Source: an uncultured Erysipelotrichaceae bacterium
GTDB taxonomy: Bacteria; Bacillota_I; Bacilli_A; Erysipelotrichales; Erysipelotrichaceae
DNA: 36,059 bases
Assembly: GCA_900315065.1 (NCBI GenBank)
Contig: OMXQ01000019.1
Span: 1-36,059, forward strand
Reading direction: 5' to 3'
Shown: positions 20,860-24,637 of the stretch, piece by piece
Position numbering within the stretch: the first letter of the stretch is position 1
How the letters are laid out: the number at the start of each line of letters is the position of its first letter
Program-made: the position numbers and the translations under genes
The notes under the pieces: model-generated
What the model saw: only the letters and a program-made list of their open reading frames with translations
The model's database searches: none
What the model was told of the DNA's origin: nothing

Positions 20860-22383
20860 ATGGTAAAAAGAATTTTGATCACATTGGGATGTTTCATAGC
20901 TGCCATATTGGTCACTTCCCTGAGCCATGTTCTTTTTGACGATGGTTCTTTTCCACTTTCTCTTTCCTGCGGAAAGTTTGATCAGAAAATCATTGCGGTG
21001 AATACGAAGGAAGAAGAAGTGAACCGCCTGTACGCAGATGGTGTTTTCCTGGGAAATATCACCAGCATGGATAAGCTCAATAATCATCTCAAAGAAGTAT
21101 ACAAAGACAAGTATGAAGATGATTTTCCGGGATCCGGCGTCCACCTGGGCAGAAATACCTATGTTGTATCGGAACCGGGTTATTTTTCCTATTCGGATGT
21201 CGATGATCAATTATTGCAGTATCTCGATGACAATGAGGATTATACATTGGAAACCAATGCTGTTATTTTCTCGGATGATTCCGGTGAGTATGCGGAAATC
21301 TATGTCACTGATACAAAGCTTTATGAAGAAGCTATGAATGAGTATCTTTCTTTCTTTATCGACGGCACAAAATCTCTGGCTGCGCTGGAAAAGAATCAGG
21401 ATCAGAGTACTTTGACAGACTATGGGTCCAAAGATGTTTCCCTGACGGTTTCCCAGAAGATTTCCTATCAGAAAAAGAATGCTTCTCCCTCTGAAATCAG
21501 ACGCACCAGAGAAGAAATTCTGAATTATCTTGAGTATGGCGATACGACTGAAAAGGAATATTACACCGTGCAGAAATATGACACGGTGGCTGGTGTCGGC
21601 GCAAAGAATCACGGCTTGTCCGCAAACCAGGTCATGAATATCAACCGGGATCAGATTTCTTCTGTAGATCAGGTACTCAAAGAAGGGGAGCAGCTTTGCG
21701 TTACCTATTTCCGTTCTCCGATTGATGTTGTCGTCAGCCGGCAGGCATTGAGAAAAGAAGCTGTGTATTTCAAGACTGAGTATCAGGAAGATGAAACCAT
21801 GCTGGTCAATACCAGTCAGGTTGTCCAGGATGGAATCAACGGCAGCCGCAATGCCCTTTATAATGAAAAATGGGTCAACGGCATTCTGGTTTCCGGTTCT
21901 CTGAAATCTTCGATTGATATCCAGCAGCCGGTAAAGGAAATTGTGAAAATCGGAACCATGCAGCCGAAAGATGTCGGGACCGGTTCTTTCCGCTATCCGG
22001 TTGATAATGCCTATATTACATGTCCGTGGGGCTGCTACTACAACCACACCGGTACGGATTTCATCAACCAGTATGAAAGATGGGGCAATGCCATTGCAGC
22101 GGATAACGGGGTTGTCAAAGAGATCAGCTATAATTCTGTTTCCGGCAATTATATCAAGATCGATCACAACAACGGATATGTGACTTACTACGGCCATCTG
22201 CGTGAGCCTTCGCCTTTGAAAGTCGGAGATGTTGTGCAGAAGGGCGATGTCATCGGCAGGATCGGCATGACGGGTTTTGCGACCGGTCCGCATGTGCATT
22301 TCTATATTGAAGAAAACGGCCAGAAGGAAAATGCGTGTGAAGTCAGTATTTTCCCAAGCTGCAAGGAAATCGGAGGTGACTGA
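20860..22383 (+). CDS. M23 family peptidoglycan endopeptidase with LysM-like domain
   Basis: A 507-residue exported or membrane-anchored cell-wall hydrolase. Residues 4-24 form a signal anchor or signal peptide. A LysM-like segment (about 226-275, YYTVQKYDTVAGVGAKNHGL) would bind peptidoglycan. The LytM-type M23 domain fills the C-terminus, with zinc ligands His396, Asp400 (HTGTD) and His480 and catalytic His446 and His478 (YGHL, HVH), so it should be active. M23 enzymes cut stem-peptide cross-links. A gene of this kind sits where Bacillus carries purA and walRKHI, between dnaB and yycJ. An AAGGA follows the dnaB stop, so it belongs to the same operon. Confidence 0.92.
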   Translation: MVKRILITLGCFIAAILVTSLSHVLFDDGSFPLSLSCGKFDQKIIAVNTKEEEVNRLYADGVFLGNITSMDKLNNHLKEVYKDKYEDDFPGSGVHLGRNTYVVSEPGYFSYSDVDDQLLQYLDDNEDYTLETNAVIFSDDSGEYAEIYVTDTKLYEEAMNEYLSFFIDGTKSLAALEKNQDQSTLTDYGSKDVSLTVSQKISYQKKNASPSEIRRTREEILNYLEYGDTTEKEYYTVQKYDTVAGVGAKNHGLSANQVMNINRDQISSVDQVLKEGEQLCVTYFRSPIDVVVSRQALRKEAVYFKTEYQEDETMLVNTSQVVQDGINGSRNALYNEKWVNGILVSGSLKSSIDIQQPVKEIVKIGTMQPKDVGTGSFRYPVDNAYITCPWGCYYNHTGTDFINQYERWGNAIAADNGVVKEISYNSVSGNYIKIDHNNGYVTYYGHLREPSPLKVGDVVQKGDVIGRIGMTGFATGPHVHFYIEENGQKENACEVSIFPSCKEIGGD

Positions 22384-22385
22384 CA

Positions 22386-23198
22386 ATGGAATTTTATCTG
22401 CTGGCCTCCGGGTCTAAGGGAAATTGCTTTTTGTTAAAGGATGCAGGAACAGTGATTCAGATCGACTGCGGTTCGACCAGGAAGTATCTGAAGGAGTGTT
22501 TTGCAAAGCTGGGCCATTCGATAGAAGAAACCGATGCTTTGTTAATTACCCATGATCATTCGGATCATATTTCCCAATTGAGAACTTTCCGTGAATTGCC
22601 AATCTATTCGCCAGTCGAGCTGCCGGATGTGGATACCTTCCGGGTAAGACCTCTGCAGGAATTCTTTATTGAAAAAATCAAAGTGACACCATTGGCCTTG
22701 TCCCATGATGCCCTTAATACAACCGGATATATCTTAGATGACGGGAGTGAGAAACTGACCTACATCACGGATACCGGCTATGTGAATGAGAGATATTTTG
22801 ATCTGATCCGGGGATCGGATTATATCGTGCTGGAATGCAACCACGATCCGGATACTTTGATGCAGACAGGCAGACCCTATTATGTCAAGCAGAGAATCAT
22901 CGGTGAAGAGGGTCATTTGTGCAATGAGGATTGTGCAGAAGTCCTGGATCAGGTTATCACCCCTAATACGAAGATGGTTATCCTGGCTCATATTTCCCAG
23001 GAAGGCAATACAAGACAACTGGCTTTGAAAACAGTCTGCACCAGATTGAAAGACAATCCCAATGTCAGCGATCTGGTAGTTGCGGCAGCCGGTCAGTATG
23101 AAATTGCCGGTAAAGGAGAAAGCGATGAAGAAATTATTTGCGGCAGCGTCAGCTATCATTTTGATCTGGAACATCTGGCTCAGCGTTCGTCTTCATGA
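22386..23198 (+). CDS. yycJ: YycJ/WalJ metallo-beta-lactamase-fold protein
   Basis: A 270-residue metallo-hydrolase of the YycJ (WalJ) family, related to 5' exonucleases and tied in other Bacillota to the WalRK operon, cell division and DNA repair. Metal motifs are THDHSDH near residues 55-61, then DTGY, LECNHD and LAHISQEGN. GGAGGT (22373-22378) lies before ATG 22386. The last 74 nt overlap the htrA-like gene in another frame, so the C-terminal 24 residues are co-encoded. In this genome it lies next to an M23 hydrolase instead of walRK. Confidence 0.93.
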   Translation: MEFYLLASGSKGNCFLLKDAGTVIQIDCGSTRKYLKECFAKLGHSIEETDALLITHDHSDHISQLRTFRELPIYSPVELPDVDTFRVRPLQEFFIEKIKVTPLALSHDALNTTGYILDDGSEKLTYITDTGYVNERYFDLIRGSDYIVLECNHDPDTLMQTGRPYYVKQRIIGEEGHLCNEDCAEVLDQVITPNTKMVILAHISQEGNTRQLALKTVCTRLKDNPNVSDLVVAAAGQYEIAGKGESDEEIICGSVSYHFDLEHLAQRSSS

Positions 23199-24159
23199 AG
23201 TCACGAAAATCTCCGGACAGGGCGGCCAGACGGTTGTGAAGAATGTTGTCAACAGCTATACGACTGATCTGACAACGATGATTGAACAGGCGCAGGAATC
23301 CATGGTAATGGTAGCCGGAAAAGATGATTCTGCCAGAAGTACAAGAAGCGGTTTTATCTTTTCAGTCGATCCTGTGAGGATTGTGACGGCAGGCGACATG
23401 TTTGCCAAGGCAGACCAGACAGATATCACCTTTGACAACGGCATCCATGTTCAGGGAAATCTGATCGGTTTTGATGAGGATACAAAAATTGCCGTCTATG
23501 AATGCAAGCCTGATTTCAATGTCGAAGCTCTGCAGCCAGGGGATAGTTCCCTGGTTTCCGCGGGCGAAAATGTAGCAGCACTTGGGGCCAGAAGGGAAAG
23601 CGGCAGTGCCATGGTATCCGAAGGTGTTGTGTCTGAAATCGGCCAGTATCGTTCTTCTTCATCATCTGCCTGGTATGAGGAAGTGCTGGAAACAGATGCC
23701 AGCGTGACAAGCCAGAACAGCGGCGGTGCTTTGCTTAACAGAAGCGGGGAAGTACTTGGTGTACTGATTCCCTCTCCTTCCGGTGCTCAGAATGAAGAAG
23801 GCTATGCATTGGCCGTCAATGAAGTCCGCAATATCTATAATGCTTTTGTCAATGACGGAACCCTCACAAGAGGATCCCTGCAGGCATGCACGCGGCCGGT
23901 CCGTTTCATGCCTGCATATGAAAAGAGTGCCCTTGGTCTGCCGCTGGATCTGACAAACGGCGTCAGAGTTATTTCCCTGCTGGAAGAAAGTGAAGACGGC
24001 TTGCGGGCAGGGGATGTCATCACGAAGATCGATGACAAGAAACTGACCGATAACGAAGATCTGCGGAACCGGCTTTATATGCACAAGCCGGGTGATACCA
24101 TCAAGGTCGATGTGCTGCGTGATGGAGAAGAAGTATCCCTGAGTGTGGTGCTGAAGTAA
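23125..24159 (+). CDS. HtrA-like trypsin-fold/PDZ protein, degenerate triad
   Basis: A 344-residue membrane-anchored protein. Residues 3-20 form a signal anchor, a trypsin-like domain spans about 70-245 and a PDZ domain about 262-344 (NGVRVISL, GLRAGDVITKI). It occupies the htrC/yyxA place after yycJ. Aligned to HtrA/DegP, the Ser motif is kept (QNSGGAL, Ser199). The TNNHVV His motif reads TAGDMF, with Asp91 in place of His, and the TDLAV Asp motif reads TKIAV, with Lys121 in place of Asp. Two of three catalytic residues therefore appear lost, suggesting a pseudoprotease with a binding or scaffold role. ATG 23125 has AAAGGAG 6 nt upstream; the upstream frame extension lies inside yycJ. Confidence 0.88.
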   Translation: MKKLFAAASAIILIWNIWLSVRLHEVTKISGQGGQTVVKNVVNSYTTDLTTMIEQAQESMVMVAGKDDSARSTRSGFIFSVDPVRIVTAGDMFAKADQTDITFDNGIHVQGNLIGFDEDTKIAVYECKPDFNVEALQPGDSSLVSAGENVAALGARRESGSAMVSEGVVSEIGQYRSSSSSAWYEEVLETDASVTSQNSGGALLNRSGEVLGVLIPSPSGAQNEEGYALAVNEVRNIYNAFVNDGTLTRGSLQACTRPVRFMPAYEKSALGLPLDLTNGVRVISLLEESEDGLRAGDVITKIDDKKLTDNEDLRNRLYMHKPGDTIKVDVLRDGEEVSLSVVLK

Positions 24160-24160
24160 T

Positions 24161-24637
24161 ATGATCAGATTATTAGCCTGCGGCAAGGTAAAAGAAAAAT
24201 GGATGCAGGGCGGCATCGATGAATATCTCAAACGGATCAAAGCATACGACAGGATTGAAATTGTCGAAGTTCAGGATGAAAAAGCACCCCAGAGCAATTC
24301 TGATGCTGAAAATGAACAGGTCAAAGACAAGGAAGGGGAGCGCCTTTTAGCAAGAATCAGAGACGATGAGTATGTGATCCTGCTGGATCTTGCCGGCAAG
24401 CCCATGGATTCGGTGCAGCTGGCAGAAAAAATTGAAAGTCTATATTCTACCGGTAAGAGCAGAATTGATTTTGTGATCGGCGGCAGCTTAGGCGTTTCCA
24501 AAGCTCTGATTGAAAGAGCTGATCAGCGGTGGATGATCTCGGTCAATACCTTCCCGCATCAATTGTGCCGGGTCATTGTTCTGGAACAGATTTACCGTGC
24601 TTTCCGGATTATGCATCATGAACCCTATCATAAATAG
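24161..24637 (+). CDS. rlmH: 23S rRNA pseudouridine1915-N3 methyltransferase
   Basis: A 158-residue SPOUT methyltransferase that modifies position 1915 in helix 69 of 23S rRNA in assembled ribosomes. Family landmarks are LLACGKVKEKW at the start, VILLDLAGKPMDS, the AdoMet knot FVIGGSLGVSK, and the C-terminal TFPHQLCRVIVLEQIYRAFRI ending in PYHK. The length matches RlmH (155-160). It starts one base after the htrA-like stop with no clear ribosome site of its own, so it depends on coupling. It ends the operon, as it closes the yyc region in many Bacillota. Confidence 0.95.
   Translation: MIRLLACGKVKEKWMQGGIDEYLKRIKAYDRIEIVEVQDEKAPQSNSDAENEQVKDKEGERLLARIRDDEYVILLDLAGKPMDSVQLAEKIESLYSTGKSRIDFVIGGSLGVSKALIERADQRWMISVNTFPHQLCRVIVLEQIYRAFRIMHHEPYHK

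Follow-up and report, generated by a model that had tools for sequence, protein, structure and literature searches.

The window, by which we mean the whole 36,059-nucleotide stretch of Erysipelotrichaceae DNA analyzed here, carries an HtrA-like gene between walJ (yycJ) and rlmH, with a gene for an M23 peptidase upstream (Table 1). This is the position of htrC (yycK) in Bacillus subtilis and its relatives. The genus of the window comprises the cultured Lactimicrobium massiliense and many MAGs labelled Solobacterium, together with rumen and gut MAGs labelled Erysipelotrichaceae. Loci of relatives were located by an RlmH search. The order M23-walJ-htrA-rlmH is conserved within this genus and across most of the family; the first-pass annotation had assigned the gene to a yycJ-htrA-rlmH block. 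Roughly a dozen loci from other genera showed no walJ, and there M23, htrA and rlmH are still adjacent (L103, L118, L120, L121, L127, L128, L131-L136, L138, and L139). The locus of one MAG labelled Traorella (L181) reads M23-walJ-rlmH, with no HtrA gene in between.

Table 1. Features of the M23-walJ-htrA-rlmH region; residue numbers are those of the HtrA-like protein
Feature	Coordinates	Strand	Basis
G5/M23 peptidase anchored in the membrane, with a complete set of catalytic residues in the window; candidate partner	20860..22383	+	
walJ (yycJ), metallo-beta-lactamase-fold protein	22386..23198	+	
HtrC-type pseudoprotease of 344 aa (TM helix; trypsin-like domain lacking the triad His and Asp; one PDZ)	23125..24159	+	frame, Pfam, phmmer, AF2 model, orthologues
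N-terminal TM helix, aa 1-28, motif W15-N16-x-x-L19 conserved	23125..23208	+	AF2 model, orthologue comparison
Asp91 codon, replacing the catalytic His	23395..23397	+	phmmer and MAFFT alignments
Asp104 codon, 43/46 in the pseudoprotease clade, variable among intact copies	23434..23436	+	clade alignment
Lys121 codon, replacing the catalytic Asp	23485..23487	+	phmmer and MAFFT alignments
Arg156 codon, 41/46 in the pseudoprotease clade; intact copies mostly have Pro	23590..23592	+	clade alignment
Ser199 codon, nucleophile position; Ser unconserved across the genus (5/67)	23719..23721	+	orthologue alignment
PDZ domain, aa 250-344, with invariant groove glycine G279	23872..24156	+	Pfam, orthologue conservation
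rlmH, SPOUT methyltransferase	24161..24637	+	

Translation from the ATG at 23125 gives 344 codons with no internal stop. This ATG is a likelier start than the TTG at 23080, since an MKK beginning and the transmembrane (TM) motif that follows it are common to the orthologues. The start of the gene and the 3' end of walJ share 74 bases (23125-23198) in different frames. Overlaps of this kind are found across the genus and make the TM segment dual-coding. Two Pfam domains score above cut-off, Trypsin_2 (residues 75-213, 74.7 bits) and PDZ_2 (residues 277-341, 54.9 bits), and the nearest NCBIfam model, degP_htrA_DO, scores far under its curated cut-off. The AF2 model (mean pLDDT 90.4) consists of a helix at residues 2-29, a helix at 48-57, a protease barrel and a PDZ domain, and its top structural matches are DegQ, Helicobacter pylori HtrA, Mycobacterium tuberculosis HtrA1 and DegP, with Z up to 30. 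Both the Pfam matches and the model thus give the trypsin-like barrel followed by a PDZ domain that defines the HtrA/DegP family. The intact frame and the remaining PDZ domain described in the first-pass annotation are therefore real, the latter backed by the PDZ_2 match and the invariant groove glycine, and the superposition on DegP/HtrA that it proposed returns an HtrA fold. That fold is common to DegQ, DegP, DegS and HtrA1 (Z about 27-30), and DegS has the same TM-protease-single-PDZ architecture; unlike the window protein, all of these are active H-D-S proteases.

The three catalytic sites of the window protein read D91, K121 and S199. In a phmmer alignment with Legionella DegQ (E 1.6e-28), TAGDMF falls on TNDHVI, DTKIAV on ETDLAV and QNSGG on GNSGG, and MAFFT alignment with intact HtrAs of the same genus gives the identical assignment of sites. 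Replacement of the His by Asp91 and of the Asp by Lys121, read by eye in the first pass, is thereby upheld. The same reading had the Ser as kept, and here only half of the claim stands: Ser199 does sit in the QNSGG of the window copy, but among the orthologues it recurs in just four of 58 tallied rows and one of the last nine genomes, that is, 5/67. Serine makes up 9.4% of residues in the genus orthologues, which puts five of 67 at about chance level. In addition, position 199 lies at the 89th percentile of variability within the protein, the sister of the window protein on the HtrA tree (L004) reads Q-G-I, with Ile at this site, and the remaining Ser-bearing copies are scattered over the tree. 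The orthologues thus rule out Ser199 as a conserved nucleophile, and in the window copy it is probably a chance residue, neither a working nor a remnant one.

An orthologue is carried by 67 of the 70 genus genomes examined; in 65 the frame is open and full-length, and the other two are interrupted by contig ends. No copy has the catalytic His where the site is covered (0/67; two are deleted there and one is not covered), and S, D, E, R, Q, K, N, A or T stands in its place. At the Asp site, the 58 tallied rows have G (27), D (23) or else K, N, A, S or E, and the Ser site is mostly I, Y, E, A, T, V, N, L, D or M. The triad of L. massiliense Marseille-P4301 (L168) is S-G-I. Alignment of the orthologues at 91, 121 and 199, the check suggested at the outset, therefore extends the absence of the His to the whole genus and does not bear out a conserved Ser. 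The genomes without a match are G046, G090 and G012. Since rlmH had no match in G012 as well, the whole locus may just be missing from that assembly. In the complete 1.5-Mb genome of G090, an 81-codon frame beginning MKKWILVIIALLFVWN lies between walJ and rlmH (L241:1256-1501); with its TM motif, it could represent either a TM-only microprotein or what remains of the gene. In G046 (L242), even the short TM-motif frame between walJ and rlmH is broken. Loss of the gene in these two reduced-genome members indicates that it can be dispensed with under some conditions.

Among 65 locus-type copies sampled from the family's other genera, 55 have an intact H-D-S triad; a few of the 65 lie on stretches without visible walJ or rlmH. 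All 40 Bacillaceae and Planococcaceae genomes examined at the walJ-htrA-rlmH locus, where HtrC/YycK is encoded, have a complete triad. Of the ten non-intact copies, eight lack the His (L092, L105, L114, L123, L129, L130, L137, and L138) and two are H-D-T, with Thr for Ser (L078 and L091); in both cases the copies sit on separate branches. We built an HtrA tree with the catalytic motifs removed and a Bacillaceae outgroup, and separate trees from the neighbouring genes. On the HtrA tree the window protein groups with the locus-type copies of other genera, and all His-less copies of the genus form a single clade, with SH-aLRT values of 99 (HtrA) and 99 (M23+walJ+rlmH) and support of 96/99 on walJ+rlmH. 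Since most sister-genus copies and all Bacillaceae-type copies have intact triads, a single loss of catalysis falls at the base of the genus. The minimum number of His-state changes is eight on the HtrA tree and six on the neighbour tree, which has fewer rows, and the trees accordingly support one loss in the genus ancestor plus about five to seven elsewhere.

The loss is confined to few positions. Just eight of the positions at which intact copies reach 85% conservation or more have been lost from the genus. Four of these (91, 121, 197 and 199) make up the triad plus the Gly of GNSGG; the others are 105, 189, 227 and 292. Mean pairwise identity in the GNSGG stretch drops from 0.72 among intact copies to 0.33 among dead ones; for the PDZ domain it is 0.35 in dead versus 0.32 in intact copies. 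By the clade alignment, D104 and R156 appear as new conserved features of the pseudoprotease clade. An active site that drifts, a fold and PDZ that are kept, and the new D104 and R156 together point to changed use, not plain decay. Convergence on Arg156 in the independent losses outside the genus was considered and is not general: L092 and L105 have an Arg two residues beyond this position, but so does the intact relative L111. The WN..L motif of the TM segment is kept in most intact relatives too, several of them with hardly any walJ overlap; within the genus, stronger conservation of the segment as a sign of a TM partner is partly confounded by that overlap.

With its catalytic residues lost and its fold and purifying selection persisting, the protein is a pseudoprotease in the general sense. 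We conclude that it is most probably an HtrC-locus orthologue that lost catalysis in the genus ancestor and has been kept by selection as a non-proteolytic, membrane-anchored binding protein. A preserved non-proteolytic role had been suspected from the window sequence, and the 67 orthologues without His, the low dN/dS, the conserved locus and the open frames strongly support it.

The alternative that survives best is slow decay, in which function disappeared with catalysis and the gene persists only through its overlap with walJ and its abutment on rlmH in the operon. Besides the overlap itself, the remnants in the two reduced-genome members fit this idea, as does the faster evolution of dead copies: nine close pairs gave dN/dS values of 0.02-0.15, about two to three times those of close pairs of intact locus copies in other genera (0.02-0.04), so constraint is weaker in the dead copies. 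However, these low values hold across the whole gene and not just the overlap, the only frames that are not full-length end at contig ends, and G76, D117, G147, G200, G208 and G279 are invariant or nearly so. The PDZ identity, no lower than among intact copies, and the newly conserved D104 and R156 also argue against decay, which we consider improbable.

HtrA proteins form trimers, and the dead subunit might join or compete with a second HtrA of the same genome as a regulatory partner. This second HtrA is intact (H-D-S) in each of the 13 genus genomes in which it was read, including L001 and nine full loci, and there is a precedent in MamO, a pseudoprotease of the HtrA family reported to promote the proteolytic activity of MamE, which is itself active (PMC4794232). 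Against such a partnership, the two proteins are only about 25% identical and are encoded at different loci, which leaves it a slim prospect; it is in any case a form of binding role and compatible with our preferred explanation.

That the window copy is still a protease, with Ser199 served by an unusual base such as a Lys or another His, is very unlikely. Ser199 and the GG of its motif are present, but the first Gly of GNSGG is Gln, 62 of the 67 orthologues have no Ser at the site, and Lys121 occurs in three of 58 rows, two of these with Ile at the Ser site. The protein has only three His residues (24, 108, and 320), none of them conserved. We searched for an alternative general base by a census of conserved His columns; no column reaches 45% across the genus, and none is in sight for Ser199. 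A His/Asp or Lys dyad as substitute catalytic pair was rejected because no conserved candidate exists. From the triad, proteolysis of YpeB or other substrates by the window protein would be expected to be absent.

Least credible is a metal-binding role of the kind suggested by the surface di-His metal site of MamO (PMC4794232), as the clade has no conserved His, let alone a conserved pair, and its top His column (19/46) lies in the PDZ domain.

As a non-proteolytic binding protein, the HtrC orthologue would be held by its TM helix so that the folded, dead HtrA body and the PDZ domain face the outside of the membrane. Anchored there, they would most likely act as a chaperone or scaffold, binding and holding client or partner proteins with no cutting, and proteolysis would be left to the second, intact HtrA.

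As the likeliest specific partner we tentatively propose the neighbouring M23 protein, which has G5 and Peptidase_M23 domains and, in the window, intact catalytic and metal residues. The first-pass annotation had suggested regulation of this hydrolase. Adjacency of the two genes even without walJ, correlated rates and degenerate M23s in some of the same lineages are compatible with this; on the other side, a PDZ-type ligand was looked for at the M23 C terminus and not found, the tails being variable. With walJ and rlmH removed, HtrA and M23 distances within the genus have a partial correlation of 0.58, or 0.42 without the degenerate M23s, and one of 0.08 among the intact copies, which are more divergent and make the comparison uneven. 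The correlation with walJ (0.45) is near that with M23, so the link is not specific to M23 and is only moderate evidence. The catalytic or metal residues of M23 are lost in G034 (L. massiliense), G056, G025, G058 and G059, all in the window's genus; a tree placing the M23-degenerate lineages in one clade was not rejected (p-AU 0.22). The degenerate copies (L018, L022, L049, L053, and L058; L242 in part) read FDHHT, HDHML, HDHAS, HNSHY and HDHHG in place of HDHHH. M23 degeneration was seen only inside this genus, and both enzymes look dead in L. massiliense. A more specific proposal, which we regard as unlikely, is that dead HtrC and M23 form a complex in which the hydrolase would be controlled allosterically and that, where the hydrolase is dead, the two would be a surface pseudoenzyme pair steering other wall hydrolases.

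One precedent for a surface-anchored binding role is HtrC itself, which during germination cleaves YpeB, a protein that partners the wall hydrolase SleB (PMC13393411). The window protein is the orthologue of HtrC (YycK) of B. subtilis and its relatives by tree and synteny and shares its walJ-htrA-rlmH order and TM-protease-PDZ layout, but it is without the His and Asp that all 40 Bacillaceae-type copies retain. A second precedent is the protease-dead HtrA S260A of B. subtilis, for which a chaperone-like benefit has been reported (PMC10715036). S260A is a laboratory mutant, whereas the loss in the genus is natural, predates the genus radiation and includes the His. The magnetosome protein MamO, also a trypsin-like HtrA relative with a degenerate triad, has been retained and repurposed, with independent losses in several lineages (PMC4794232). 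It differs from the window protein in its di-His site and its transporter domain, neither of which was found here.

HtrA-family pseudoproteases such as MamO are thus already known (PMC4794232). In the part of the literature that was searched, we found no description of HtrA pseudoproteases in Bacillota or Erysipelotrichaceae, nor of an HtrC that is dead throughout a genus of Bacillota, combined with recurrent losses at one locus and, in some lineages, an M23 pseudo-hydrolase alongside. For annotation, the consequence is that homology alone would label the dead copies serine proteases, given their Trypsin_2 and PDZ_2 matches. For the biology of the family, a genus-wide loss of catalysis with the rest of the protein kept is a natural separation-of-function experiment, accompanied by intact same-locus orthologues in sister genera and by a cultured member.
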